64,000 bases of DNA, taken from positions 1-64,000 of IMG/VR virus record IMGVR_UViG_3300024264_000011; one strand, written 5' to 3'. The stretch comes from a virus. Within the stretch, counting starts at the first letter, position 1. Every line of letters begins with the position of its first letter. A program made the translations under genes and the position numbers. The notes under the pieces were generated by a model. The model made no database searches. It worked only from the letters and a program-made list of their open reading frames with translations, and had not been told where the DNA came from. Of the stretch, positions 16,679-36,428 are shown one piece after another.

Positions 16679-16686
16679 TATTTATC
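16679..16686 (-). promoter_or_regulatory. Late promoter candidate GATAAATA
   Basis: Minus-strand TGATAAATA fuses the TGA stop of the giant wedge gene with a NATAAATA octamer, 29 bases before the gp8 ATG. Confidence 0.5.
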
Positions 16687-19600
16687 AGAGATAACTGTCG
16701 AAATATACAAGATCCGAACTTGTGTGTGATCTTGCAGTTCCTACAGCACCTCTAGTGCAACCATCCAGTGTATATGTTGGATATCCAAGGAAGGAAATAC
16801 TCAAAATACCATAATGGTCATAATCTGATCCACTATTATCATCCTGAATTAACCTGAAATACACATGTTCACCCTGAACTGCAGTTGGAAGGTTGAAATC
16901 ATAATTGTCTAGAACACCAGTGCCAGATCCATTAGGAACTGCATCAATTACAATACCAAGATCCACCCAAGAATTACCATCTGGTGCTGCACCAGATGAT
17001 GTAGATTGATATTGTATTCTAAGATCTTCATCACCAACAACATCTGGTGTCTCACCACCATTAGAATCGTTACCTCTAACAGCATAAACACGAACAGAAT
17101 TTACACCTCTAGAATCAATGGGGTCAAAAGTGACAAATCTAGTTCCACTAGTATCACCAAATCTCAAGTGAGTACCAATATCAAAACCACCAGTTGAACC
17201 AACTCCAGTTCCCCCACTAACAATTGCTGTGCCATTACCAAATTCATAAATTCCATCTGAATTTGTTGTATCAAAACCAACTGAAGAAATTGAATTTTCA
17301 GTTACATATGTATATTCAACACCTTCAGCTTCAACTTCGCCAGATACTTCTTTATAGAAGAATACTCTATTGGTATCATAACCAACACCAGGATTTTGAA
17401 TAATGACACTAGTAATTGTACCAGAACTGTTTAATACACCCTCAAGAACACAACCATCTCCACCGCCACCAGTAATTCCGATAGTAAAGTCACGGTCATC
17501 ATAACCACTACCACCATTCAAGAGATCAATCTTTCTTATTTCACCACCAGATACATAAACTTTAAAGTTTGCTCCAGACCCACTAGAAGAAGTAACTGTA
17601 ACTGTTGGTGGATTTGATGGCAAACCAGTTCCATTACCAACATCAAAAGTCTCTACAGAATTATTAATATTCTGAAGTAACTTTGTAGCTTTTCTAATTT
17701 CCGACTTATTAAGTGGTTGTAATTTATAAACACTTGCATATTGAGTTGCAACTACAGTTGGATTTGTATAAATGTTATACCCACCATATTGAATATCAAT
17801 AGAACTTTCCTCTACTCTATTTCCATAGATAGTCTCAACCAAAGCGGTTGCTTTAGCACCAGTACCAGTTCCTTTTGTTCTAATTACCACTGGGGTATCA
17901 TAACCACCACCTTTATTAGATACCGTAAATCCAGTAACTTTACCACTAGAGTAAGTTGCTGTTGCAGCAAATCCTGAAGGACCGTCACCACTGTAAGATG
18001 CAGTGGTTAATATTGTTGGTGAAAGAACCGCAGTGACAGTTCTTTCTTCTTCCTCACCAGGAATCTGTATCTTATCACCAGTGTTAACTTCACTTATTCT
18101 ATTGAATACTCTTACATCACCATAAGTTCCCCTGAAGTCCATGATGAATAATCTACTGAAGGAAACAGAACTAGTAAATCTAATTTTTTCATTATCAATA
18201 TAATAGTCATATAGAGGACTTTGTACTTCACCATCTTTAACAACCAATAATTGATTTTCTAGTTTTCTTGGTCTATCAATATCATAATTTGGATAGTAGA
18301 CGTTTCCACTCTTTGTTAACTCAAATACTGTTCCAGATGAACTGGTCTTAGTATCAAGTTTATCGAAAGATCCAACACTTCTTACCGAAATCACATCCGA
18401 AGCAACTGGTGCTGTAGTGAATACAATCTGAGTTTCGTTATCAGTAATTGGTTCAATATCAAAATCATGACCAGGTTCTAGTATATCTCCATTTTTGACA
18501 ACCAATAGACTTGTTGGATCTGGAGTGTCGTCATCAGATACTGTTCCGACAGGAACAAAGTTTTCTTCACCATCAAACAAATTGAATCTGGTGATAGAAC
18601 CATTGAAAGGAGTATTGATTTGATCTAGCAAATTGAATACACCGAAGAACTTAATAGCAAATAAAGTTCCTGTAGTATGATTTTCTGATAAAGTAACAGT
18701 ATTATCATTATTCCATGTGAAGTGTCCAAGTTCAGCAAATCTCCACTTATTATTGGAGAATATTACAACATTTTCCCTCTGTAAAGATTCGGAATAACTA
18801 TTACCAAAATTGTATCTTCTAGTATTACTGCTACCTGGATCATCCACAAGAGTTAATGCAGTATTCTCACTCATTCTAATCAACATAATAGTATCATTGT
18901 GAGCAGGAGCGTCAGTGAACGTTATGAGACCTCTGCTGGTTGATATACTATACTCCGTGGAAGGATCTAGTACAATTCCATTTTTAACTGCTAAAATATC
19001 AGCATCGGTAAGAATATTTGCAGCAATAAGATTTGCTTGATTGTAGAATAACTTAAATATAGTTCTCTCACCATTTGGACAATACTGAAACTCATCAATT
19101 AACTGTACATTTGGATACTTAACAACAAATACTTGAGTTGGAGCAAATCCATCTGAGTGAGTTAGTCTAATTGTATTATTATTGTATACAGTGAAATCAC
19201 CTCTTCTCTTAAATCTAGGAACACCATCTGCATAAATTATAATCTTATCTTCATCACTAGAAGAAATAGTTGATGAAACCACGTAATCAGTTTGGTTTGT
19301 AGATACAGTTGAACCACCAGTAATAGTTAATTCGTCTCTTCCATGGGCATGTAAAACGTAAATATCTTCTGTTTCTTCAACATTAGTTGTAAATTCAATA
19401 TAACCAGGTCCTACAACATAATCTTGAGTTGGATTCTGGACTACACCAGCCCTAATAATAAGTAAATCTGCAGGATCACTTATAGAGGGATTGAAACTCT
19501 GGAAACCATTTCCAGCAGTATATACTAGTTTATATCTAGTTGGGAGAATAGAAACTCCATTTTCTGTTCTAGTTACCTTAGTATAATTATCATCAATGAA

Positions 19601-22600
19601 GTCTAAGTATTCTACTGGATTTGAAACACCTGGTATATCATCACCAATTCTAATAATTGTAATTTTAGCACCAACAGATGTTAATGCGGTTGAATTGAAT
19701 ATAATTCTGTCTGTTACACTATTAACACTATATGGAGAAACTGTGTATGCAAAACCTGCTTTTTGTACAACACCATCAATTGCCACCATAATTTCATTTG
19801 CATCACTTAATGCATCAGTTGCACTACCACTAAATCGTAAGTCATATGTTAATGTTGATGTATTAGAAACTGTCAATACATCATACTCTTGACCTAGAGT
19901 TGTTTGATCAGCAAATGCAATAATATAAAGATCACTAATATCTACATCTTCAGCGAAAGTGAATGTAAATGTCTGTGAACCAGATCCAGAAGGAACATTT
20001 ACACTGTATGCACTAGATAATCTTGTTTGTAAAATACCATTATTAAATACAAGGAATTTATTAGATGTTGTAGCATCCGCAGTAGCAGTTATTGTGGTAG
20101 AATTAGTTTGAGATAATGTAGATGTAATATTAACTAAATTAGAATCACCACTACCAATAATATTCAACATGAAGATGTCTTCTGTTGTTTGTGGTGCAGT
20201 AGTAAATCTAATGAATGGGAATGTGTTATTATCTTGGATCGAATAGTCAACACCAACTTCTTGAAAGACACCATTTCTGAGTACAAGAACATTTACATCA
20301 TTATCTACAGTAGTATTAGTGTAATTTGTAGTTAATGCAAAATCTGTTTGTGTGCCATTTATATAATTAGCAAACTCTAATGTTTCATTCTGATTAATTC
20401 CATCATATGCATAGAAAGCGAATATAGTACCATCTTCATCTGGTGATGGAGCATCAGAGAAAGTTATATTACCACTAGTAATAGTATAATCTATACTTGG
20501 TTTTTGTAGTACTCCGTTTCTAACAACAAAGAAGTTATTTGTGACAAAACTAGACTGTAATATGCCATCAATCGTGATTGGGAAAGTTGTTCTTGAATCA
20601 TCAAAACATACAAATGGATCCAATACAACATTCTTTGTTGATAATGGTGATAACTGTCTATTAAAGAATACAAGATTAATATCATCAGAAGCTTCTGGAG
20701 CATCTACAAAAGTAATTTTATTGTCATTTACCGTATGACCATTAAAAGTTCTAACTTTATGGTCTGTGTAAGAAGATACAGGATATTGTAGTTCATCATT
20801 TTTTATAACAAAAATATCACCGACATTATTAACATACTTTGGAACACCTCTATCAGAAAGATTAAACTTAGTTCTAGTACCATTCTGGACTACTCCTAAT
20901 CTATCAATAATAGTACCATTTTCATTATTTGTATTTGATAAAAATTCACTCACATAATCAATCAACGTACAATTAATAGACGAGGCGTAAGCTGTAGAGA
21001 AAGTGATATTAGAACCACTAACACTATATTGATCATGGTCTAGTACTTGATTATCAATGTATACTACAAGACTTTCTTCTCCATTGCTTGGAGTGTAATT
21101 TTTACCATCTCTCTTAATAGAGAAGGTAGTAGTTGAACCATTGAAAGATAACTTATCCAGGACTTCTACATAACTGCTGGAATATCTTGGACTTGTATAT
21201 GTAAATCTAGTATCAAAACCTTCAACTCTTGTAGCAGAAGCTGGGTAGACAGTACCATCTATAAGTTCATTTCTTGATTCATAAAATGATTGTGCATTTT
21301 TAACTGCATTTGACTCAATAAATTGTTGTTTCTCATTAGCAGAAGTACAATGTAAGATCGATTGGATTCTGTTTTGATTTAATAAAGCAGTATCAATACT
21401 TTCACAAGTGATAGTTTCATTTTGAATATACCAACCAAATACCAAACTTGGATCTACAGAAGACTCAAAAGTTATCTGGTTTCCACTGATAGTAAAATCT
21501 TGTGCAGGGACTAATTGAGTTTGGAATACTCCCAAATAGAAAATTAAAAGCTCGCAATGATCAGAAGGAGTATGATTTAAAGTAAATACAGTATTATTTG
21601 TTTGTGGGTTTGTGAATGATAATTTTCTAAGATTCTCATGTCTTACTGCACAGACTTTGGTATTGTCAAATCCAATATTAACACCTAAACCAACTGTATT
21701 ATTGGATACAGTTAATAAATTAGGATTTTGTACTACTCCAGCAACAGATATAATAAATTGTTCCAGTGTGGAAGATGTCACAGAATAAGAAACACTATCT
21801 TTAGTGAATGAAATAGCGTTACTATTTGTAGATAATGTACTGGTATCCAATACATCAAAATTATTAATTATATTTGTTGGATCTGTAGAATCATATCTTG
21901 GTGAAATTCTATAGAGATAAATTTCATCTGTGGATAAGAAATCAAAATTTGGTACAAAATAATATTCATTATTGTTTGTAGTTGACGCTGCTACTTCAAA
22001 GGAAGTATCATGTTCCTGGTATATTCCACTAAAGAAAGCCAGAGATAAATCTGTAGAATCAAAATTAGCAAAAGCAAAATCTTGAGTAATTCTTACAATA
22101 ATTTCACGAAGTTGGAATTCTTTTTTACTTCTAATTTCTACATATATGAAGTACTCAGTAACTTTAACAACTTGTGCAATAGCACCACTAATAGTTCCAT
22201 AAATGTAATTGCCAACAGAATATAGAGAAGTATCTTGTAAAAGAAGTCTTCTCTGATAACATGGAGATAACTTGACATTCAAGTTAATATCACTAGAAAT
22301 TGCTGCGGTGAAGATGACACTGCTCTTGAAAACCTGATCCGAGAAGAATTTCTTTCTTCTCTCAATAACTTTTTTACCAAACTGTTTGAATCCAGCTGGG
22401 TGTGTATTAATATCTTGTGTTTTTTTCCACTCCTTAGTGTCTCTGGAAGAGACTATAGAATATGACCAATTTTGATAATAATTACTATCAGTTACTCTTT
22501 GGGAGTAGTCACTAACGTTACCTCTAGTATCAGTAATTTTTCTAGGAAGATCAACTTTAGATTCTATTCCAGCAGACACTTTAGATCTCTTTGTAGAAAC

Positions 22601-25600
22601 TAAATTGCCATAAATTTGACCATTAGATGTTTTAATTACGTCATTATCAATAAAGAATCCAGAAGTTTCATTTATTTGAATAGTAGATGATAATGGATCA
22701 AATCCAGTAACAAGTCCTTCAATTGCAACTGGATATTTCTTGGATACTCTATCTGTAGTGATAGGAGCATTTGGGAGAAGATTCTTTCTCTTAATATTTA
22801 CTTTAAAAGATGCACCACTACCTTCCTGAGAAGATACTGTTATAATTGGTACTTCAGAAAAATTTGAACCACCATCAATTACTTCCACTTTAGTAATAGT
22901 ACCGACACTAACGGTTGCTTTTAAGTTTGCTCTTGCAGAATCTCCATTAACTAAAAGAGTGACAACATTATCATACAAAGAACCACCCGATAAAACTTCG
23001 ACACTATCAATTTCAAAATTATTGGTAACTTTTGCAGTTACTGGAGTTTTTACTTTATGTCTTACATTAATATTTTCAGTAAAAGAAGATACTGCAGAAT
23101 AGTTGAAATTTTTTAATTTTCCAATACTTGTAGAATCTAATTGAACAATTGCCTTACCGTCTCCTGCTATTTGATTGTCTGAAGCAATAGTACCTTTCTT
23201 TACAATAGAGGAAATTGATGGAAGTCGTCTATAACCAGAACCCTTATTGGATATAGTAATATCAACTATCGGTCCAGTAGCACCTGCAGATTTTGCAGAA
23301 TATCTTAATCTTTCATCATAATAATTTTCTACAGATTCAATAAAATTAATTACAAATTTTGTTGGACTTACATATCTGGCGACTCTATATTTACCAGAAT
23401 AATCTCTAGTTTTTTGAACAATAAAGACTTTTGTAATAGTACTACTGTGTACAAAGAAAGTATCTGGTAATTTTCTTGGATCGATTATAATATAATTAGA
23501 TTCAACTTCACTTATTTCAAATAGAGGTTGTTGCTTCTCTAAATCTGCATATAATTCAATATTATCACCAACAATTTTATAGATTAAAAATGCATTTATA
23601 TTAATATTTTCCAATTTTGTTCCAGATAATCCAGCACTGGTTACAGCGACAAACTGAGATTCTGATCCACTTGGTGATGACAAATTAATTGTTTCATTAA
23701 AATAACCATCACCTATTAAAGATTCATTTACTTTATCATATTCAAAAAATACATAATCTCCATATATTAATCCATGAGAAGAGTCTGTTGTAAACTCTAC
23801 TGATTTATTATCAGTATTTGGTAAAATTTTGATATTTGTTATTTTTTTACCACCAACTCTAGAAACAAAAGCAGAAGCTCCAGATCCTCCAGTTAAATTA
23901 TTATCAAAAATTAATTTATCACCAACTTTGTAATTATTACCAGCATTTTCAATTATGCATGAATCAACAGAACCACTCGATAAACTATATCCACCATAAG
24001 ATGAAGTAAATGATTTATCAAATTGAGAATTTGGAATCCTTTGTGATATAACACTCTTTGTTCTTGATGTATCTTCTGATGGATAATAATCATTACCCTC
24101 ATAACCAGAATAATTCAGATCATCAGATTTAGACTGTGGTCCTTCGTAGGCTCTTTCAAATACTTTTGGAATTCTATCGGAAGTTCTACACTTATTATTG
24201 TTATAGTCGTCGTAAGTAGAAGCAAATTCGTCACCAACAACAAATGGGAAGCCAGTTGGTATAGATGCACTACTTGGATTTCCAGCAGTACTATTGGTCA
24301 AGAGAGAATTTGTTACACTATCGTATGAAGATGTAGTAGCTACATAATAATATTTTCCATCTGGGAATTCTGGTGTAACAGCATACCTACCATTGAATTT
24401 ATCTAACGAACCTAAAGTAGTATCAGCAGAATATTCGTAATCCTCAATAAAACTACCAATTGGATAATCACTTATATCTGGTCCACCATCTCTACTTACC
24501 CAATATGTTGTACTACTAATAGATACAGATAATCTATTTGTTGTGCTGGGTTGAGATGTACTATACTTTAATTTATATCTTGATTTAACTTCCTCGAGCG
24601 AAGAATTACCTCTAGGATCACTATAGTGTTTATTTGATGCATAAATTGGAATACCGTCACAACTAAAACCAACTACAGGTGAATGGTATTCAGCAGATAC
24701 GATGTTATTTACATTTGAGTTTAAATTTGGATATGTTGATCTAATTGCAGAGTTTCTCTGATGTATATCATATGCAACCAACTTATCAGCAAATGTTAAA
24801 ATATAATATTCTTTTGAATCTAATGATTTAGCAAAATCAAGATTCTGATCAACTACTTTAAAAGTTGCTTCATTATTTGCAGAAGGTACTACATCATCTG
24901 TATTAAAAACATAACCACCATATTCATCAATTCTACCATTCCTAGACAACATGGAAGGTAAGTTAAATGTCCACTCTTTTAATTTTACAGATACTACTGC
25001 TTTCCTCTTCTCTGCAGATTTAAAAGTTAATCTAGGAGATGCAGTATAACCTTCACCACCATTTTCTATAATAACTTCTTTCAACCCTGATTTACTATTT
25101 CCAGTAATATCCAACACTGATGTTAGTGTAGCCTTTTCAGTACCGCCGGCGCCAACTTCAATAATAGGAGGTACACTATAGTTTTGTCCAATATTTGTAA
25201 TCGACACAGAAGAAACTTCACCATCAGAAACATAAGCAACACCTTCTACATTACTACCAAAATCTAGTATTGCTGATGGTCTACTATCATACGTAGTAGA
25301 TACATTAGGATTTTCAATTTCATTATAATTTGACTTATAAAAATTCTTGTTGGAAACTAAAGGACCTTCTGCTTCAATATATCTATCAGTACCTTTTCCA
25401 AATGGAATTTTAAATTCTGTAGTTTTTCCACCACCTCTAATATAAATTGATGGTAACGCAACATACCCAAAACCTTCGTCTAAAACAATTATATTATCAA
25501 TATTACCATTAACATAACTAATGTCCAATACAGCATCTCTATGATTTGGGTGTAGAAGAGGATCAGCAACTAGTTTGAAGTTTACCGAAGAATATCCAGC

Positions 25601-28600
25601 AGAAAGAGTTAAAGTAATAGGATCCTTTGATAATAAAGCATCAGACTTTGTTGTATGTAACTTAATTACAATAGGATCTGTAGTGGAATTTACTACACTG
25701 ACATAATAATATGTGCCATTTGATAAGTTATCAAATGATTGTAAATTATTGGTATAATTAAATAAAACTCTATCACCAGAATTTAGACTCTCTACGTCAT
25801 CAGCATCAATATTTAATGAATCTACTCCTGACCCAAAAATATCGTTCTCATCTAAAACAAACTTTTGTGTGATAGAAGGTGAGTCATTTACCAATTCGAT
25901 AGTTGGTTTTGATGTAAATCCAGTTAATTCGGATTGGTAATCTTCGTATAATGTTGTAAAATTAACTTTTTTAATTGATGCAGCAATTCTTAATAATGAT
26001 CCAGTATTTCTATTAGTAACAGATCCACTTTGGGATGTTATCTGGAATCTGGGCATACCACCAGCCCAAACATCGTATCTAGCTGCTGTACCATCTAATC
26101 GTAATGGTACTGGATAAATTCCTCCATCAGCTATAACAATTTTAGATATTTCACCGTATTCTATAGTATTTCCTCTATATGAATTAATTTGAATACCATT
26201 TACATCTAGACCAACAGATTTTTTGTTTTTTCTACCAGTACCAACAAAATTTGCTCCACCAGGTCTTAAAGATCTTTTGTTGATCCTATAAACGGAGTTT
26301 TGGTTTGTAAAATTAACTAATTTTCCAGCAGCATTACTTGGATTTTTGTTGGAATCGAAAAGATTTCCAGATTGTGTGGTAATATCATTCCACCAAGGTG
26401 GAATTGCTGTAGATGCAACATATACATGATCACCAAATTCATATTTTGATTGAATACCAGTTGTATGATAATATATGTTGACAAATCTAGAATCATCAAC
26501 ATAATTTACTTGTGGATTTGGAAATATTGTTGTAAATATATCTGAAGTTTCGGAATCTGATTGATTAAATGTTGATATATTTTTATCATCATTATCAATG
26601 AATCTGTATGTGGAATCAAAATTTAAAGCTCCACCGTCTTCTACAGATAGAGTAGAAGGAACTCCTAATATTCTGAATGATGGGTCAATTACAGTAGAAT
26701 CACTGTTTTTTATATAAAAAGAATAGTTGTATCTATTTTTGACTACATATTTCCATTCTACTGGGGTCGAATTTATGATTGTACCATCATAAGCACTACC
26801 AGAAGTATGTGTTGGAGCAGTAGATCCAGAAGTACCAGAATTTAATGCACGATATAGTGAAATTCCATTATATCTTAAATCATCTTTAGTAATAGATTCC
26901 CCACTAGTCCACTTATTTAAAGTTTCCATTCTTCCATAGGAAACAACTTCATTTTCAACATCAAGTGTTATATTTTCAGTCTGAATTCCAGCAATTTGTG
27001 GATATTCACAACCAAAGAACTGTTTCATAGTTCTTGATTTATAATATATTTCTACACCATCAACAAATATAACTCCATTGTTTAGTGGAAATCTACTAGC
27101 GTCATCCACAGAGATAATAAAATCTGTATCACCGATTATAATCGATTGTTCTCTTATGATAATTGTTGTTGGTTGTAAATAGATATGATTTATATCAGTT
27201 TCTCTACTAATATCTACCTGATATACATTATTTTCTAATGAGAATGATGTATCAATACCAATAGTAGCTCCTGGTATTTTATACTTCCTATCTGCATCTT
27301 GTACGAGAGTAACTACTTGAGGTAAAAAACCACCTTCCAAATCGCCAGTTAAGTACTTAAACTTTGTAATTACTGGACTTATACTGGAAGCACTAGAAGG
27401 ACTGAATGTATAGTTTCTAGGGAATTCTATATTTTGTTCTTCACCATCAACCTGGAATCCATTTCTACTAGCTACGGGAGATGTAAATGACTTTGCAACG
27501 AAAGCTCTTGCTTTTTCTCCATCATCGGTAAATAATTCATCATTTGGAGCAAAATAACCAACTACATCATAAAGTAATAATTCATCAGTAAAAGAATCAT
27601 AATACTCTACTCTACCACTTCCAGTTCTTGATTCATTATAAACAACTTGGTCTTCTAAAAATTTTCTATTTCTTACAACTGCACTGATTGGTCCTCTATA
27701 ATTTTCTCCTTCATCACTAACAGTAATAGAAGTTATAACTCCATCAGAATTTATTCCACTTACGTCAATAACTGCAGTAGTATTTTCTCTAATACCATTA
27801 GATACTACACCAGTACCACTACCAATAATTGATATTATTGGTGGATTGACTAATGTCCCATTTTCAATTCTATTATCATAGTTAACACCACCAGAAACAA
27901 TTTGAGGTGGTGGTGAAGAATCTACTTTACCTCTGGTATTATTAATCTTTAATTTAGCACCAAAACCTCTTCTTTTTAGAATAATATTAAATCTTCTATC
28001 GTTAAAAAGAATTCTGAATAAAATTCTATGAGAATTTAAACTTCCTTTAGAAGCATAAAAAGATCTAATTCTGCTAATGAAAGAACCAAGATCAATGTCA
28101 TCTACTAAAACTTCTGGTAATAATGGAACTAACTCAGATTTAATTCTACTAAAGAATTCATTAGCATAAAAATAAGCAATATTAACTACTTCTGATTTGT
28201 CAAGATGTTCCGCAGTTTTACTAGAAGTTAAGACTATATCAGTAGTAACTTCTCTATCAAGAACTAAAGCTGTTGTGCCCCTTACACAATCCTCAAAAGT
28301 AGTTTTTGTTGTTGTTCTATAAAATATAATTTCATCATTTATCTTGATATATCCATCCTTCTCTGGAAATCCATCAGTGCTATCAACAGTAATAACCTCA
28401 GCAGTTTTGCTAAGGTTTGAAGACATATTTAACTTAGTTTTTTGAACTAAGTTATTTGGTCTAAAATAAGATATATTATAGTACTCCGTTAAATTGGAGG
28501 CTATATCAAGAGGTTTAAATTTTAACTCTTGAGACTGATAGTAGCTAGTTACGAAGTTTACGAACCGTTCATTATTTTCCTGAACAAAATCAGGAAACTG

Positions 28601-28651
28601 ATTCTCAATTAAAGTGGAGAGAATTGAGTCTTTTTGATCGAGGTATATCAT
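16685..28651 (-). CDS. Giant baseplate wedge protein in the gp7 position
   Basis: One uninterrupted frame of 3988 codons, the largest gene in the window. It lies between gp6 and gp8, the place of gp7 in T4 (1032 residues). Residues 1-230 look like a wedge core (MIYLDQKDSILSTLIENQFP, VNIAYFYANEFFSRIKSELV, SFISRIRSFYASKGS). Further on are G-G-GY beta repeats, a YHYH-like stretch near residue 1310 (HSPVVGFSCDGIPIYASNKH), and about 14 repeats of 75-95 residues over roughly 2300-3480 with the core '[VI]..NGV.Q.P..DY.I......ITFT.AP...D.I'. The C-terminus has a galactose-binding-like part and ends TARSHTSSDLVYFDSYL. It overlaps the gp6 stop by four bases. Confidence 0.75.
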   Translation of the reverse strand: MIYLDQKDSILSTLIENQFPDFVQENNERFVNFVTSYYQSQELKFKPLDIASNLTEYYNISYFRPNNLVQKTKLNMSSNLSKTAEVITVDSTDGFPEKDGYIKINDEIIFYRTTTKTTFEDCVRGTTALVLDREVTTDIVLTSSKTAEHLDKSEVVNIAYFYANEFFSRIKSELVPLLPEVLVDDIDLGSFISRIRSFYASKGSLNSHRILFRILFNDRRFNIILKRRGFGAKLKINNTRGKVDSSPPPQIVSGGVNYDNRIENGTLVNPPIISIIGSGTGVVSNGIRENTTAVIDVSGINSDGVITSITVSDEGENYRGPISAVVRNRKFLEDQVVYNESRTGSGRVEYYDSFTDELLLYDVVGYFAPNDELFTDDGEKARAFVAKSFTSPVASRNGFQVDGEEQNIEFPRNYTFSPSSASSISPVITKFKYLTGDLEGGFLPQVVTLVQDADRKYKIPGATIGIDTSFSLENNVYQVDISRETDINHIYLQPTTIIIREQSIIIGDTDFIISVDDASRFPLNNGVIFVDGVEIYYKSRTMKQFFGCEYPQIAGIQTENITLDVENEVVSYGRMETLNKWTSGESITKDDLRYNGISLYRALNSGTSGSTAPTHTSGSAYDGTIINSTPVEWKYVVKNRYNYSFYIKNSDSTVIDPSFRILGVPSTLSVEDGGALNFDSTYRFIDNDDKNISTFNQSDSETSDIFTTIFPNPQVNYVDDSRFVNIYYHTTGIQSKYEFGDHVYVASTAIPPWWNDITTQSGNLFDSNKNPSNAAGKLVNFTNQNSVYRINKRSLRPGGANFVGTGRKNKKSVGLDVNGIQINSYRGNTIEYGEISKIVIADGGIYPVPLRLDGTAARYDVWAGGMPRFQITSQSGSVTNRNTGSLLRIAASIKKVNFTTLYEDYQSELTGFTSKPTIELVNDSPSITQKFVLDENDIFGSGVDSLNIDADDVESLNSGDRVLFNYTNNLQSFDNLSNGTYYYVSVVNSTTDPIVIKLHTTKSDALLSKDPITLTLSAGYSSVNFKLVADPLLHPNHRDAVLDISYVNGNIDNIIVLDEGFGYVALPSIYIRGGGKTTEFKIPFGKGTDRYIEAEGPLVSNKNFYKSNYNEIENPNVSTTYDSRPSAILDFGSNVEGVAYVSDGEVSSVSITNIGQNYSVPPIIEVGAGGTEKATLTSVLDITGNSKSGLKEVIIENGGEGYTASPRLTFKSAEKRKAVVSVKLKEWTFNLPSMLSRNGRIDEYGGYVFNTDDVVPSANNEATFKVVDQNLDFAKSLDSKEYYILTFADKLVAYDIHQRNSAIRSTYPNLNSNVNNIVSAEYHSPVVGFSCDGIPIYASNKHYSDPRGNSSLEEVKSRYKLKYSTSQPSTTNRLSVSISSTTYWVSRDGGPDISDYPIGSFIEDYEYSADTTLGSLDKFNGRYAVTPEFPDGKYYYVATTSSYDSVTNSLLTNSTAGNPSSASIPTGFPFVVGDEFASTYDDYNNNKCRTSDRIPKVFERAYEGPQSKSDDLNYSGYEGNDYYPSEDTSRTKSVISQRIPNSQFDKSFTSSYGGYSLSSGSVDSCIIENAGNNYKVGDKLIFDNNLTGGSGASAFVSRVGGKKITNIKILPNTDNKSVEFTTDSSHGLIYGDYVFFEYDKVNESLIGDGYFNETINLSSPSGSESQFVAVTSAGLSGTKLENININAFLIYKIVGDNIELYADLEKQQPLFEISEVESNYIIIDPRKLPDTFFVHSSTITKVFIVQKTRDYSGKYRVARYVSPTKFVINFIESVENYYDERLRYSAKSAGATGPIVDITISNKGSGYRRLPSISSIVKKGTIASDNQIAGDGKAIVQLDSTSIGKLKNFNYSAVSSFTENINVRHKVKTPVTAKVTNNFEIDSVEVLSGGSLYDNVVTLLVNGDSARANLKATVSVGTITKVEVIDGGSNFSEVPIITVSSQEGSGASFKVNIKRKNLLPNAPITTDRVSKKYPVAIEGLVTGFDPLSSTIQINETSGFFIDNDVIKTSNGQIYGNLVSTKRSKVSAGIESKVDLPRKITDTRGNVSDYSQRVTDSNYYQNWSYSIVSSRDTKEWKKTQDINTHPAGFKQFGKKVIERRKKFFSDQVFKSSVIFTAAISSDINLNVKLSPCYQRRLLLQDTSLYSVGNYIYGTISGAIAQVVKVTEYFIYVEIRSKKEFQLREIIVRITQDFAFANFDSTDLSLAFFSGIYQEHDTSFEVAASTTNNNEYYFVPNFDFLSTDEIYLYRISPRYDSTDPTNIINNFDVLDTSTLSTNSNAISFTKDSVSYSVTSSTLEQFIISVAGVVQNPNLLTVSNNTVGLGVNIGFDNTKVCAVRHENLRKLSFTNPQTNNTVFTLNHTPSDHCELLIFYLGVFQTQLVPAQDFTISGNQITFESSVDPSLVFGWYIQNETITCESIDTALLNQNRIQSILHCTSANEKQQFIESNAVKNAQSFYESRNELIDGTVYPASATRVEGFDTRFTYTSPRYSSSYVEVLDKLSFNGSTTTFSIKRDGKNYTPSNGEESLVVYIDNQVLDHDQYSVSGSNITFSTAYASSINCTLIDYVSEFLSNTNNENGTIIDRLGVVQNGTRTKFNLSDRGVPKYVNNVGDIFVIKNDELQYPVSSYTDHKVRTFNGHTVNDNKITFVDAPEASDDINLVFFNRQLSPLSTKNVVLDPFVCFDDSRTTFPITIDGILQSSFVTNNFFVVRNGVLQKPSIDYTITSGNITFSDAPSPDEDGTIFAFYAYDGINQNETLEFANYINGTQTDFALTTNYTNTTVDNDVNVLVLRNGVFQEVGVDYSIQDNNTFPFIRFTTAPQTTEDIFMLNIIGSGDSNLVNITSTLSQTNSTTITATADATTSNKFLVFNNGILQTRLSSAYSVNVPSGSGSQTFTFTFAEDVDISDLYIIAFADQTTLGQEYDVLTVSNTSTLTYDLRFSGSATDALSDANEIMVAIDGVVQKAGFAYTVSPYSVNSVTDRIIFNSTALTSVGAKITIIRIGDDIPGVSNPVEYLDFIDDNYTKVTRTENGVSILPTRYKLVYTAGNGFQSFNPSISDPADLLIIRAGVVQNPTQDYVVGPGYIEFTTNVEETEDIYVLHAHGRDELTITGGSTVSTNQTDYVVSSTISSSDEDKIIIYADGVPRFKRRGDFTVYNNNTIRLTHSDGFAPTQVFVVKYPNVQLIDEFQYCPNGERTIFKLFYNQANLIAANILTDADILAVKNGIVLDPSTEYSISTSRGLITFTDAPAHNDTIMLIRMSENTALTLVDDPGSSNTRRYNFGNSYSESLQRENVVIFSNNKWRFAELGHFTWNNDNTVTLSENHTTGTLFAIKFFGVFNLLDQINTPFNGSITRFNLFDGEENFVPVGTVSDDDTPDPTSLLVVKNGDILEPGHDFDIEPITDNETQIVFTTAPVASDVISVRSVGSFDKLDTKTSSSGTVFELTKSGNVYYPNYDIDRPRKLENQLLVVKDGEVQSPLYDYYIDNEKIRFTSSVSFSRLFIMDFRGTYGDVRVFNRISEVNTGDKIQIPGEEEERTVTAVLSPTILTTASYSGDGPSGFAATATYSSGKVTGFTVSNKGGGYDTPVVIRTKGTGTGAKATALVETIYGNRVEESSIDIQYGGYNIYTNPTVVATQYASVYKLQPLNKSEIRKATKLLQNINNSVETFDVGNGTGLPSNPPTVTVTSSSGSGANFKVYVSGGEIRKIDLLNGGSGYDDRDFTIGITGGGGDGCVLEGVLNSSGTITSVIIQNPGVGYDTNRVFFYKEVSGEVEAEGVEYTYVTENSISSVGFDTTNSDGIYEFGNGTAIVSGGTGVGSTGGFDIGTHLRFGDTSGTRFVTFDPIDSRGVNSVRVYAVRGNDSNGGETPDVVGDEDLRIQYQSTSSGAAPDGNSWVDLGIVIDAVPNGSGTGVLDNYDFNLPTAVQGEHVYFRLIQDDNSGSDYDHYGILSISFLGYPTYTLDGCTRGAVGTARSHTSSDLVYFDSYL

Positions 28652-30741: not shown

Positions 30742-31203
30742 TTAACTTTCTCTTACTAGTATGAATGATAGATTTTGAACTTCTGGTGGTGAACCAACTA
30801 TTTCATACTCAATAATTACCTCAAATCCAGAGTCAATTGTAGCATCTGGTGTTGGTGGATTTACTTCAATAGCTACCAGTTTGATTCTTGGTTCATAGGT
30901 TACAAGTACCTTTTCAATTTGTTCAATTAATGCATTTGATGAGACCCCAGTATTTAATTCAAACAAATATGAAGTAGTATCAGTTCCTACAAGTGGATTA
31001 AATGGTCGTTCATTTACTTTGGTCAAAACTAAATTTTTGACCGACTGTTTTATCGATTCTTCATTCTTTAACACAACAATATCACCAGTCACAGGATTAC
31101 GAGCAAAATTTAAACTAAGGTCTTTAAAGGCCCTAGAAATTTTGCCAAGGTAATTAGACTGTAAAGTCCTCTTTCCAGTTACTGAACCTAGATACTGCGG
31201 CAT
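30742..31203 (-). CDS. gp25: Baseplate wedge subunit gp25
   Basis: gp25 is the lysozyme-like-fold wedge component that contacts gp6 and the sheath. The 153-residue product has the family layout: SRAFKDLSLNFARNPVTGDI, VKNLVLTKVNERPFNPLVGTD, LIEQIEKVLVTYEPRIKLVAIEV. These include the conserved 'ERPF.P..G' turn. T4 gp25 is 132 residues. GTAATG start follows a short leader with a possible but weak TATAAAGA promoter. It is directly followed by gp6. Confidence 0.92.
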   Translation of the reverse strand: MPQYLGSVTGKRTLQSNYLGKISRAFKDLSLNFARNPVTGDIVVLKNEESIKQSVKNLVLTKVNERPFNPLVGTDTTSYLFELNTGVSSNALIEQIEKVLVTYEPRIKLVAIEVNPPTPDATIDSGFEVIIEYEIVGSPPEVQNLSFILVRES

Positions 31204-31247: not shown

Positions 31248-31388
31248 TCATTTTTTCGTATTCCGCAAAATAGGTTTATTTGCACTCTTCAGATAGTAAT
31301 CTGATTTCGGATTTGTGATGAGAATTACTGTTCCAAAGTCTTTTTTCATAAGTTCTGGTGCATAATCCGGGTTTGGTGAATTAGCCAT
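31248..31388 (-). CDS. Small hypothetical protein MANSPNPDYAPEL
   Basis: This is a 46-codon ORF with a good ribosome site (AGAGG, five bases before ATG) and an ordinary composition (MKKDFGTVILITNPKSDYYL). It ends 44 bases before gp25. It overlaps the end of the broken gene described next in another frame. It is either a real small gene or a new frame exposed by that gene's decay. No family is recognised. Confidence 0.5.
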   Translation of the reverse strand: MANSPNPDYAPELMKKDFGTVILITNPKSDYYLKSANKPILRNTKK

Positions 31389-31707
31389 TTTACCTCTAGA
31401 ATCATTTCCAGAACTTTTTTGGAGGTTCTATCTCCGATATAGTCCATACAGTTCCAAAACTGTAGGTTAGGTAAGTCTAAATCAGGTTCAGGGGTCTCTG
31501 GGCGGTCCAGGAACGCACTGATTGGGAGTTTGTCATACATTGACCCATATTCAGGAAGATAAGTCTCAAAATAAAAGCGCGTCCAGGTATAGACTTTGCC
31601 GATACCCAGACGCCCTCAACAAATTCGCCAAAACCAGATTGATGATCAGTGAGATATTCTTTTCTCACATAGACTTTTCTTGCTGGTAAATTGACGACTA
31701 AACTCAT
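31346..31707 (-). pseudogene. Frameshifted, probably truncated conserved cyanophage structural-region gene
   Basis: The start MSLVVNLPARKVYVRKEY runs in one frame to ...KSIPGRAF. The natural continuation (YFETYLPEYGSMYDKLPIS, LPNLQFWNCMDY) is in the -1 frame. One extra T in the run TTTTATTTT would join them. After CMDY the sequence no longer resembles the family, and the C-terminal half that I recall in other cyanophages is absent. The ATG overlaps the stop of the 48-residue gene upstream (ATGA). Alternatives are a sequencing error in a T run or -1 ribosomal slippage on TTTT, though the site is not a canonical slippery heptamer. Confidence 0.7.
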
Positions 31708-31850
31708 TTTCCTTGACCGCGATATGCTTTTCTAGCTTTGTTACGAGACGTTGCAGCGTACTTAGTAAATTTACCTTTACCCTGACGAGTCATTTTGGGC
31801 TTACCCTCAATGAAAGTACCACCAGACAATCCGATTCGTGATTTAGCCAT
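31704..31850 (-). CDS. Conserved small basic protein (48 residues)
   Basis: This reads MAKSRIGLSGGTFIEGKP, then KMTRQGKGKFTKYAATSRN, KARKAYRGQGK. It is strongly basic with Gly/Lys/Arg turns and resembles a short protein found in many T4-like cyanophages of unknown function. Its stop overlaps the start of the broken gene (ATGA). A nucleic-acid or baseplate role cannot be decided from sequence. Confidence 0.75.
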   Translation of the reverse strand: MAKSRIGLSGGTFIEGKPKMTRQGKGKFTKYAATSRNKARKAYRGQGK

Positions 31851-32183: not shown

Positions 32184-35100
32184 TTAAACCTCCCTGAGTC
32201 TATCGATCCAATATTGTGAAATACTGAATCCTTTGTCATAACTAGTTATAATAGTTTCTCTTGGATTATCTGACGCTCCAAACTTCTTATCTTCATCTGG
32301 AGTATTATCAGAGTTTGTTGCAAAAATTTCTACTTCACCACTACCATTACCACCATTCTTATTGGCAACAAAAACATCACCAACAGCAGGTGTACCTTTA
32401 ATGTCATCCGTTAACTTTTTCCAATCAGTCGTTCCGATGTGAATAATTTTATATCTAACATCTTTACTAATTTCTTTGGCGGAAATTATTTGAACCTGAT
32501 CTGAAGAAGAACTTACAGCTTCTCTAACACAATTTTGGAATTTTCTATCAGTTTTACTATCATAATAGATAATTTCTTCACCAGAATATGAGAAATAAAC
32601 AGTATTATTACCAGTTTGATCGGTAACTATTTTTTTCTGATATTTTAGAATAGAAAGATATCCAGACTCCAAGAACCCTGATGTACTTTCTACTAAAATT
32701 TCAGTATCAGAACTTCCAATACTTCTTCTAATCTTAGCTAAAACTGGTTTGTCCATATATGGATTACCAAAGTTGGCAAGAGTTTCACCAATTAACTCAG
32801 TGAGTTCATTTAGTCTAAACCAGAACATTTTATAAAAATCTTGTTGATAACTTACATTCCTTTCCCATAGAACTCTTGGATATACAGTTGGAATTGGTGG
32901 TAAGATATCATCATCACTGCTACGATCTTTATAATCAAGATCTCTTAATTGTGGTGGTAATGAATTGTTTGTAGCTTCATAATACGCACCATCACCATAC
33001 TGTTCTGCTCTCTCACCAAAGTAAATATTATTCTTTGCATCTTTTGGACCAATTCTCCATCCGGCACTATAGTTACATCCTGATGATGAAATTCCAGCAG
33101 TATAACCAGGTTGTCCTTCTGTTCCTGATGATGGAGTTCCTGCAACAAATGAAGATGCTTGTGCAGTTACAGCACCTGTAGATGAAGTAATGGTATCTAA
33201 GTAACCCTCAGAATCTAAATTCACAGTGATTATAATAGAAGATGTAGATCCTCCTGCTGTTACTGTAGTAGTTTGTGTGGTAGCTCCACCAGTCCAAGTC
33301 AAACGTGGTTTAGATCTAAACACAAGTCTTGGTTGATTAATTGTAGTCTCTGGTGATAGATCAAGAACTGGATTCACAAACTTATCATCTGTAATAACTA
33401 AGTCCTCAATAAAATACTTACATCTATCCATTGATGGGGGTAATTCTCTATAAGAATCAGAAATATTAATTCTACCAGAATTATCAGAACCTTCAACCTG
33501 AGGTGGTAGATTCTCAATTTTTGTATCTGGTGTAGAATTTTTAATATTTCCAGTTCCAGATTTAATTTTATTTAAAATTGAGTCTTCATCACCAACTAAT
33601 CTATTATAATAGTCTTCACTTAAAAATGAAGATTGTGAAATAGTATTTGTTATAATTTCTTCAAATCTATCAACTACCTTATCAAAATCATCATATTTAC
33701 CTTGTTTTTTTCGCTGTCGTTCAACTTCTTCAATAGTACGTCTAATACATGCATCTTTGACGCCTTCATCAATAGTATTACCACCTTCACCCAAATCATC
33801 AAGTTCAAGTTCAGGAATATATGATTGGAAATACTCTAACCTAACATCATTTCTACAAATAGAGTCAAAAGTTATTGCAGATTTCAATCCCTTAAGTTCT
33901 GTCTTACAAAAATCACCGACAACTCCATACATTCTGATTATGTTAGAATCTTTTTTGTAATCTCTGTAAAATTTTCTTAGAAGATATCTTGGAATAGGAG
34001 AATTCGTAAGTCCAAAATATAGAGAAGCAATCTGATATATGATTGGTATCTCAATACTTGGTTTTCTCAACACATATACATCTTCAAAATCATAACCAGA
34101 AATTATTTGATTGTCTCTCCATATAGTAGTTGCAAGTACATATTCTCCAAGTTCATCAACATCAGTTTCTTCTTGACACTGAGCATCTGCAGCATAGAAG
34201 ATTGGACTATACTGAAGTTTTTTCTTACCACTTGAATAATATGTACCAACAACAGCAGATCTATTAATGACACCTTTACCCGCTCTAACAGTAATTTGTA
34301 TACCATCACCACTTGTATAATCGCCATCTGCAGTAAAATCACTACCAGATCCATTAATCTCTGCATAACAAAGAGTATGTTTGCTAATTCTATTCACAGA
34401 GTTATCTGCAAATCTTACTGATTTTGGACGATCACCTACGAGAGGTTTAGTAATAAAAATTCTATTTCCTGCAGTATCAACGGCAGTTATTTTAGTACCT
34501 TCAGAAATACTGTCATCATCAACTGGACCAAAAACCTGCATATCTTCTGCTAGATCAGCAACAGTGTCTAACTTTAACCAACCTTGAGTTCTTGAATATC
34601 CATCATCACTACCACCATATACATCTTTAAATGTATCCTTACTGACACCAGGTTGACTTAGATTCTTTGGTGAAGATGATGCAACTGTTCTCTTGAGAGC
34701 AATATCAACAACATAGTTAACAATATTGGTGATGGTATGACCATTGATAGTATCACCAATCTTCATTGGTCTACTTGTAGAACCAGACTTACTATTTGAT
34801 TTTTCCCCTAAAGATATTTTCCAACTACGCATGTACGTGTTAACATTATTATCCGCCTTAAACCAAACTTTAAACTTACTGGTTGATAATAATTGTATTC
34901 TAGACACAACTACATTACCACTATCTCGTAATCCAGATGCACTTAAACCAGATAAAAAAGAGATATTGATATCTGCAGGAGTACGAATATTAAATCCACT
35001 TACAGTAACTTCATAATGTTTTCTTGCATTGGAATTATCCCCACCACCGAGATCAGCAGGTGAAATTTCTTGAATTGTAAAACTGGTAGAAGAACTAGTT

Positions 35101-36428
35101 AAACTATTAGTTACATTTGCTGGGTCATTAAAAACATGATTAACAGTAGTTTCTACTGGATTAGTACCTTGCAAATTTTCTGGTTGATAATTAAAGAAAA
35201 TTTTATTATCATCAGTGCCACCATGATAAATTATTGGATCACCAATCTTACTTGTCAAATAAGACGACTTATTACTTTGCGTAGATGTTGCACTATAATT
35301 AGTAGTACCTTTAACAACTAAATTACCTTTATCATCAAACTTTGCAGTTACGCTAGAACCATTGGTATTAGTAACATTTAAATCAACTTGTGCGTTTGTA
35401 TCTGATCCGCCGCCATCATATAATATAATTCGAGTTCCATTATTTGTTACATCAAATCCACCAGCATTTCGAGTCAAATTCAACAAATAATCACCATCAG
35501 ATAATGTTACTGATGAACTAGTACTACCTTTTTCTCCACTCTGTGTAAAACTTACACCACTTCCATTCCATCCAATCGTACCAACAGCAACACCTGCAGT
35601 ATCTGGATCATCATCCCACTCAAATGAAATATTGATAGATGCTGAAATATCAGAAGGAACAGCAGAACCTGCTCCTTCATCACCATTAATTCTTCCTGTA
35701 GTCGGACTAAAACTTAGTTTTCTGTAATTATAATTCTCATCAATCCATAAAATTTCACTCTCAACTTTATCAAGTTCCGTAGTGCCAGTAAAGGTGACAC
35801 ATGGAGTAGCTACTGTATAAGTAGTTGATTGACCAGCGCCTTCTCCACACTCACAAACTGCTTGTTCTTCAAAAAATCCACAGACTTTCCGTGTTACTAC
35901 AGTATGATCTGTCGGCCAATTGAAGACATGTTGAAAATATTCCTCATCATATGTAATAAAAGGTCTACATTGAATCTCCCATCGCGGAACTTGATTCTTT
36001 AATTTCTCTACTTCATCAACATCTTGTTCATAATAATACTGACCAGATGTAATTGAATTGATATATGATTTATCTTCATCATCAACATAGTCATCGACTT
36101 CATTGATGTAATTATATCGGAAATATAATGGTTCTCTTTCCGCAAAAGTAATTGCTTTTATATCGTTACCGTAACTGTCTGTACCAGAAAAAGAGCTATT
36201 TTGGTTGCCAACTTCATTATGGTTGTAACGAATCAACCCACTAATGGTTTTTTCAGTGCCAGGAGTTGATGTACCCGCTACTGCTGGTGTATAACCTGAT
36301 TGACCTGGTGTACCAGATGCAGGTGTACCACAAGAAAAGTTTGGTGGGGGCGTATACGATATCGTACGCTCCCTATACTTACGTGTAGGTTTACAATTAT
36401 GAATCCTTGCTTTATCTTTCTTCGCCAT
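32184..36428 (-). CDS. Large virion structural protein next to the PAAR tip
   Basis: A 1414-residue protein at the front of the structural block. The N-terminus is basic (MAKKDKARIHNCKPTRKYRER), then a Pro/Gly/Thr linker and beta-rich repeats. Near residues 810-990 is a helical part (YFGLTNSPIPRYLLRKFYRD, DACIRRTIEEVERQRKKQGK) and near 1215-1260 FYKMFWFRLNELTELIGETL. A C-terminal module (YKIIHIGTTDWKKLTDDIKG) is common in phage particle proteins. It occupies the place of baseplate hub/wedge genes beside PAAR and gp25, but I see no gp5 lysozyme or gp53 signature. A baseplate role is inferred. Confidence 0.7.
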   Translation of the reverse strand: MAKKDKARIHNCKPTRKYRERTISYTPPPNFSCGTPASGTPGQSGYTPAVAGTSTPGTEKTISGLIRYNHNEVGNQNSSFSGTDSYGNDIKAITFAEREPLYFRYNYINEVDDYVDDEDKSYINSITSGQYYYEQDVDEVEKLKNQVPRWEIQCRPFITYDEEYFQHVFNWPTDHTVVTRKVCGFFEEQAVCECGEGAGQSTTYTVATPCVTFTGTTELDKVESEILWIDENYNYRKLSFSPTTGRINGDEGAGSAVPSDISASINISFEWDDDPDTAGVAVGTIGWNGSGVSFTQSGEKGSTSSSVTLSDGDYLLNLTRNAGGFDVTNNGTRIILYDGGGSDTNAQVDLNVTNTNGSSVTAKFDDKGNLVVKGTTNYSATSTQSNKSSYLTSKIGDPIIYHGGTDDNKIFFNYQPENLQGTNPVETTVNHVFNDPANVTNSLTSSSTSFTIQEISPADLGGGDNSNARKHYEVTVSGFNIRTPADINISFLSGLSASGLRDSGNVVVSRIQLLSTSKFKVWFKADNNVNTYMRSWKISLGEKSNSKSGSTSRPMKIGDTINGHTITNIVNYVVDIALKRTVASSSPKNLSQPGVSKDTFKDVYGGSDDGYSRTQGWLKLDTVADLAEDMQVFGPVDDDSISEGTKITAVDTAGNRIFITKPLVGDRPKSVRFADNSVNRISKHTLCYAEINGSGSDFTADGDYTSGDGIQITVRAGKGVINRSAVVGTYYSSGKKKLQYSPIFYAADAQCQEETDVDELGEYVLATTIWRDNQIISGYDFEDVYVLRKPSIEIPIIYQIASLYFGLTNSPIPRYLLRKFYRDYKKDSNIIRMYGVVGDFCKTELKGLKSAITFDSICRNDVRLEYFQSYIPELELDDLGEGGNTIDEGVKDACIRRTIEEVERQRKKQGKYDDFDKVVDRFEEIITNTISQSSFLSEDYYNRLVGDEDSILNKIKSGTGNIKNSTPDTKIENLPPQVEGSDNSGRINISDSYRELPPSMDRCKYFIEDLVITDDKFVNPVLDLSPETTINQPRLVFRSKPRLTWTGGATTQTTTVTAGGSTSSIIITVNLDSEGYLDTITSSTGAVTAQASSFVAGTPSSGTEGQPGYTAGISSSGCNYSAGWRIGPKDAKNNIYFGERAEQYGDGAYYEATNNSLPPQLRDLDYKDRSSDDDILPPIPTVYPRVLWERNVSYQQDFYKMFWFRLNELTELIGETLANFGNPYMDKPVLAKIRRSIGSSDTEILVESTSGFLESGYLSILKYQKKIVTDQTGNNTVYFSYSGEEIIYYDSKTDRKFQNCVREAVSSSSDQVQIISAKEISKDVRYKIIHIGTTDWKKLTDDIKGTPAVGDVFVANKNGGNGSGEVEIFATNSDNTPDEDKKFGASDNPRETIITSYDKGFSISQYWIDRLREV

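Follow-up and report, generated by a model that had tools for sequence, protein, structure and literature searches.

A probable pseudogene of PHROG 3704 and a conserved RNA leader next to the baseplate genes of a cyanophage-like virus

Introduction

Among the baseplate genes of the viral DNA studied here, a conserved coding sequence changes frame and then stops short, and the question is what has happened to it. The DNA, hereafter the window, is a stretch of 64,000 nucleotides (positions 1 to 64,000 of IMG/VR virus record IMGVR_UViG_3300024264_000011). An earlier note, made from the letters alone, had read two overlapping frames as one protein short of one T and lacking its C-terminal half, and had offered three explanations: a dying gene, an error in the sequence or a -1 ribosomal slip. 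We confirmed that the frameshifted and truncated gene is real. Here we identify the gene, weigh the explanations and describe a conserved RNA element that follows it.

Results and Discussion

Organization of the locus

The gene order on the minus strand is PHROG 516, the broken PHROG 3704 gene, the RNA element, PHROG 1414, gp25 and gp6. The features are as follows.

31704..31850, minus: small gene, intact, 48 aa, PHROG 516 (E = 3e-24); left border of the slot
31707-31439, minus: PHROG 3704 fragment, codons 1-90 in both frames, recognized by homology; the family is about 218 aa long
31573..31707, minus: codons 1-45 in the start-codon frame; 93-98% amino acid identity to L096, L102 and others
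31568..31576, minus: frame break TTTTATTTT, a -1 change relative to all relatives seen
31439..31576, minus: codons 45-90 in the second frame, ending ...FWNCMDY
31435..31439, minus: deletion junction
31410..31435, minus: RNA element GGAGATAGAACCTCCAAAAAAGTTCT, with stem S1 (GGAG:CTCC), predicted pseudoknot S2 (AGAAC:GTTCT) and an A-rich linker
31394..31413, minus: competing hairpin P2, TTCTGGAA:TTCTAGAG, predicted by RNA folding; TTCT is common to S2 and P2
31248..31388, minus: small gene, intact, 46 aa, PHROG 1414 (E = 2.3e-18)
30742..31203, minus: gp25-like baseplate wedge gene, intact, homologous to annotated gp25 in conserved order; right border of the slot
30741-28648, minus: gp6, beyond gp25

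The PHROG 516 gene keeps its place in the gene order of relatives, and PHROG 1414 is found at the equivalent position, with 67-70% identity between the window and its counterpart in L095-L104. The 46-codon frame, earlier ascribed to the damage, is a separate, conserved and intact gene. Its match to PHROG 1414 also rules out that it is a C-terminal remnant of PHROG 3704. The baseplate block is flanked by very long structural genes, which in the window lie at 16685-28651 (3988 aa) and 32184-36428 (1414 aa).

Two lesions in the PHROG 3704 gene

The frame that begins at the start codon spans 31707-31477 (76 aa); past codon 45 it no longer follows the family and terminates at a stop at 31477. Both this frame and the second one match PHROG 3704 above chance (E = 9e-20 and 2e-22, respectively), and amino acid identity to L096 is 96% on either side of the break. 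In a BLASTP comparison with the homologue of phage S-MS29, the second frame is 83% identical over 46 aa and the match ends at MDY. Homology to the family thus ends at codon 90, three bases (31436-31438) before the RNA element. Comparison with relatives that hold both the full gene and the element indicates that codons 91 to the stop, about 128 codons, and part of the spacer are gone. No C-terminal half, second copy or relocated piece of PHROG 3704 occurs anywhere in the whole 107,375-base record, and a search of IMG/VR contigs, near-identical records apart, for the 26-mer across the junction gave no match elsewhere. The fragment is therefore homologous to an intact family and carries lesions that block a full product, namely the frame break and the loss after codon 90.

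Intact copies in related phages

Alignment with full-length relatives, a check that the earlier note had named, displays both the break and the truncation at codon 90. In the 80 closest IMG/VR homologues the frame stays open for 214-240 codons, except where a contig end truncates it. A pattern scan of the T run, with zero to two extra bases allowed, matched at least 119 IMG/VR stretches, and all 80 of those listed are one base longer than the form in the window. The other loci compared, which were collected through the PHROG 3704 gene, gp25 and the RNA element and are not a random sample, hold about 220 distinct copies: 203 are full length and 18 are divergent but align over nearly their whole length without interruption. 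A divergent version (about 32% identical) occupies the same slot in L297, L323, L332, L342, L407 and others, including the freshwater phage DSL-LC02.

Only one other broken copy was found among these loci, in Synechococcus phage S-B43 (MN018232). It too is interrupted after the N-terminal part, but the two halves are parted by an inversion of about 9 kb and both remain in the record. The halves lie at L408 1097-1321 (+) and L012 2501-2893 (+), and the inversion, which is either real or an assembly error, carries gp25, gp6 and the large structural gene. The window gene resembles the PHROG 3704 genes of T4-like cyanophages in its codons 1-90 (up to 96-98% amino acid identity) and in its slot, which in many phages lies between PHROG 516 and PHROG 1414/gp25. 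It differs in its broken frame and in the loss of its C-terminal half.

Clade and selection

A tree built from gp25, gp6 and the first part of the structural gene that follows, which fixes the clade of the window but not the branching within it, places the window in a clade of 13 rows (support 100/100). Eight of these carry PHROG 3704 intact, and four, in two lineages, lack it in the slot. The four records are fragments, and no other PHROG 3704 copy was found in them.

Between the fragment and the intact genes of the clade, the proportion of synonymous sites changed is 0.30-0.47 and that of nonsynonymous sites 0.014-0.047. These values are close to those among the intact genes, and nonsynonymous change is low, in some comparisons slightly above that of intact copies. 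Change that is mostly synonymous suggests that the fragment has spent most of its history under selection, so that the break looks recent. Low nonsynonymous change can alternatively mean that the 90-residue piece is still in use. Synonymous divergence is higher in the flanking genes (0.36-0.81, with most values above 0.55) than in the fragment, which hints at exchange of PHROG 3704 between lineages.

Origin of the broken gene

Given the analyses above, we consider it very probable that this is a pseudogene, an optional gene of T4-like cyanophages recently inactivated by a 3' deletion of about 400 bp and a 1-bp frameshift. Two lesions, intact copies in relatives, clade members without the gene and undamaged neighbours on both sides all favour the dying gene among the three earlier explanations. 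PHROG 3704 would be dispensable and both lesions would be recent; the deletion may have been able to spread because it spared the RNA leader and the start of PHROG 1414. A different account of the junction, which we regard as unlikely, is that recombination, natural or as an assembly chimera, joined a gene-bearing phage upstream to an element-bearing, gene-less phage downstream. Such a junction is conceivable because the clade members with an intact gene (L095-L099, L102-L104) lack the element and L101, L105 and L119 have the element without the gene; the lower synonymous divergence of the fragment from its relatives, compared with the flanking genes, points the same way. However, the PHROG 1414 protein of the window is closer to those of gene-bearing phages (67-70%) than to those of gene-less ones (42-45%), gene and element commonly occur together elsewhere (147 of 236 element occurrences), and the junction holds no long shared sequence that could mislead an assembler.

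The remaining accounts concern the frame. If the deletion were genuine and only the single-base shift an error of sequencing or assembly, the gene would be truncated yet open, with a frame running through the RNA element to a stop at 31346. The break does lie within a short T run, a usual site of indel errors. However, across the 62.6 kb of the record spanned by relatives' open reading frames, the break in PHROG 3704 is the only frameshift detected, which disfavours sequencing error and puts the chance of a stray error in the 270-bp fragment at about 0.4%. The open frame would also remain 128 codons short and extend into the next gene, a loss for which a sequence error is an insufficient explanation, and we hold this account to be improbable. 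The programmed -1 slip at TTTTATTTT, yielding a functional protein of only about 120 residues, is scarcely credible. A slip at the TTT codon would regain the homologous frame, but the zero frame GCT TTT ATT TTG contains no canonical X XXY YYZ heptamer, every other copy seen reads in one frame, so that recoding is not conserved in relatives, and the product would still be without the C-terminal half, its last 30 residues being unrelated to the family. We also find it highly improbable that the first 90 residues fold and function alone, which would make this a working short gene and not a dead one. In the structure predicted for the intact protein, confidence is highest for residues 1-70; the change of frame at codon 46 disrupts this segment as well, and no other shortened version of the gene was found among the loci compared.

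Names and placement of PHROG 3704

Records name PHROG 3704 genes variously as PurM, ferredoxin, transcriptional regulator and virion structural protein. In a Pfam search of three intact members no family scored above the cut-off, and the PurM (AIR synthetase) and ferredoxin families were not matched. We found no relatives in the PDB by sequence, and none by fold with E <= 0.001 in a search that used a predicted model of medium confidence (pLDDT 73, pTM 0.73). A viral fold library gave four matches with E <= 0.001, whose names are uninformative. The names PurM, ferredoxin and transcriptional regulator are thus unsupported.

The gene does lie in the baseplate block here, as had been supposed, but its place among the baseplate genes is not constant. 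P-SSM2 carries it beside purM (L009 2495-3163) and S-CAM22 beside mazG (L262 10073-10759), placements which indicate that PHROG 3704 has moved between genome regions. The name PurM may have been taken from the neighbouring purM of P-SSM2. The slot lacks PHROG 3704 in many phages, which suggests an accessory role.

A conserved RNA element upstream of PHROG 1414

The leader of PHROG 1414 (31435-31389, minus strand) comprises the RNA element and the competing hairpin. We identified the element also in L006, L010, L079, L090, L101, L106, L195 and many other loci. The sequence compared contains 236 occurrences, including repeats of one contig, and gp25 lies close downstream in 231 of them. Upstream is PHROG 3704 in 147 and PHROG 516 instead in 71. 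In most relatives PHROG 3704 precedes the element and the small gene follows it; in ACG-2014a and S-SSM4, where the slot lacks PHROG 3704, the element directly follows PHROG 516, and in syn9 one extra small gene separates it from PHROG 516. The element is kept both with and without an upstream PHROG 3704 gene, and also next to the half-deleted copy in the window. Matches to it occur in 117 phage records, almost all of Synechococcus phages, and most of those listed have no annotated feature under it. Six further matches in prokaryote genome bins are all in phage context and are therefore probably phage contigs.

In an alignment of 58 sequences, two of the four pairs of S1 show two-sided changes, and none of 500 shuffles equalled the covariation score. 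The outer pair is AU in 32, CG in 15, GC in 6 and UA in 2 sequences, and the third pair is GC in 48 and AU in 9. This covariation supports a conserved structured RNA, as judged from the alignment. S2 is nearly invariant in the same alignment, with one two-sided change (L090) and two G-U pairs. Rfam scans of eight loci returned nothing at the gathering threshold, and three permissive scans gave only matches far below it. No description of the element was found in the open-access literature, and the folded RNA before PHROG 1414 is apparently undescribed.

The predicted hairpin P2 overlaps AGAGG, the ribosome-binding site of PHROG 1414. Of 148 distinct leaders, 144 pair the CU of GUUCU in a downstream hairpin, compared with about 65 in shuffles, and in 112 leaders the partner of that C falls at the ribosome-binding site, compared with about 32. 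This pattern suggests two exclusive states, one that exposes the ribosome-binding site and one that covers it. Specifically, pairing of GUUCU with the hairpin loop, which forms the predicted pseudoknot, would leave the site free, and pairing of GUUCU with the site itself would close it. The choice of state might answer to a ligand, a protein or the state of infection. We tentatively propose, at somewhat short of even confidence, that T4-like cyanophages use the element as a translational switch of a sort not described before. The window retains S1, S2 and P2.

Known RNAs provide points of comparison. The preQ1-I riboswitch is a small H-type pseudoknot with an A-rich strand. The cyanophage element is likewise predicted to be a small H-type pseudoknot with an A-rich strand 5' of a start codon, but differs in that none of the loci scanned matched Rfam at the gathering threshold, the matches of the permissive scans lying far below it. 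The leader of phage T4 gene 32 also has a pseudoknot, and gp32 is an mRNA-specific translational repressor of its own gene (PMC535899, PMC3014915). Both are thus leaders of genes of T4-type phages, but the gene and the sequence differ, and in the cyanophage element the third strand of the pseudoknot could pair with the ribosome-binding site instead. T4-like cyanophages also carry the cis-regulatory RNAs wcaG, manA, PhotoRC-II and glnA, which are Rfam families (PMC2864571, PMC9964418). The role predicted for the present element would be of the same kind in the same phages, but the element of the window matches none of these families.

Implications

The finding is largely ordinary, a probably dispensable gene that is dying. 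The broken gene offers a snapshot of gene loss in phages, a stage between relatives in which the gene survives and relatives that lack it, and it shows that the PHROG 3704 family is optional and that the public names PurM and ferredoxin are unsupported. The RNA leader outweighs the broken gene and is the part worth following, as it is widespread in cyanophages and holds a fixed place before a baseplate gene.
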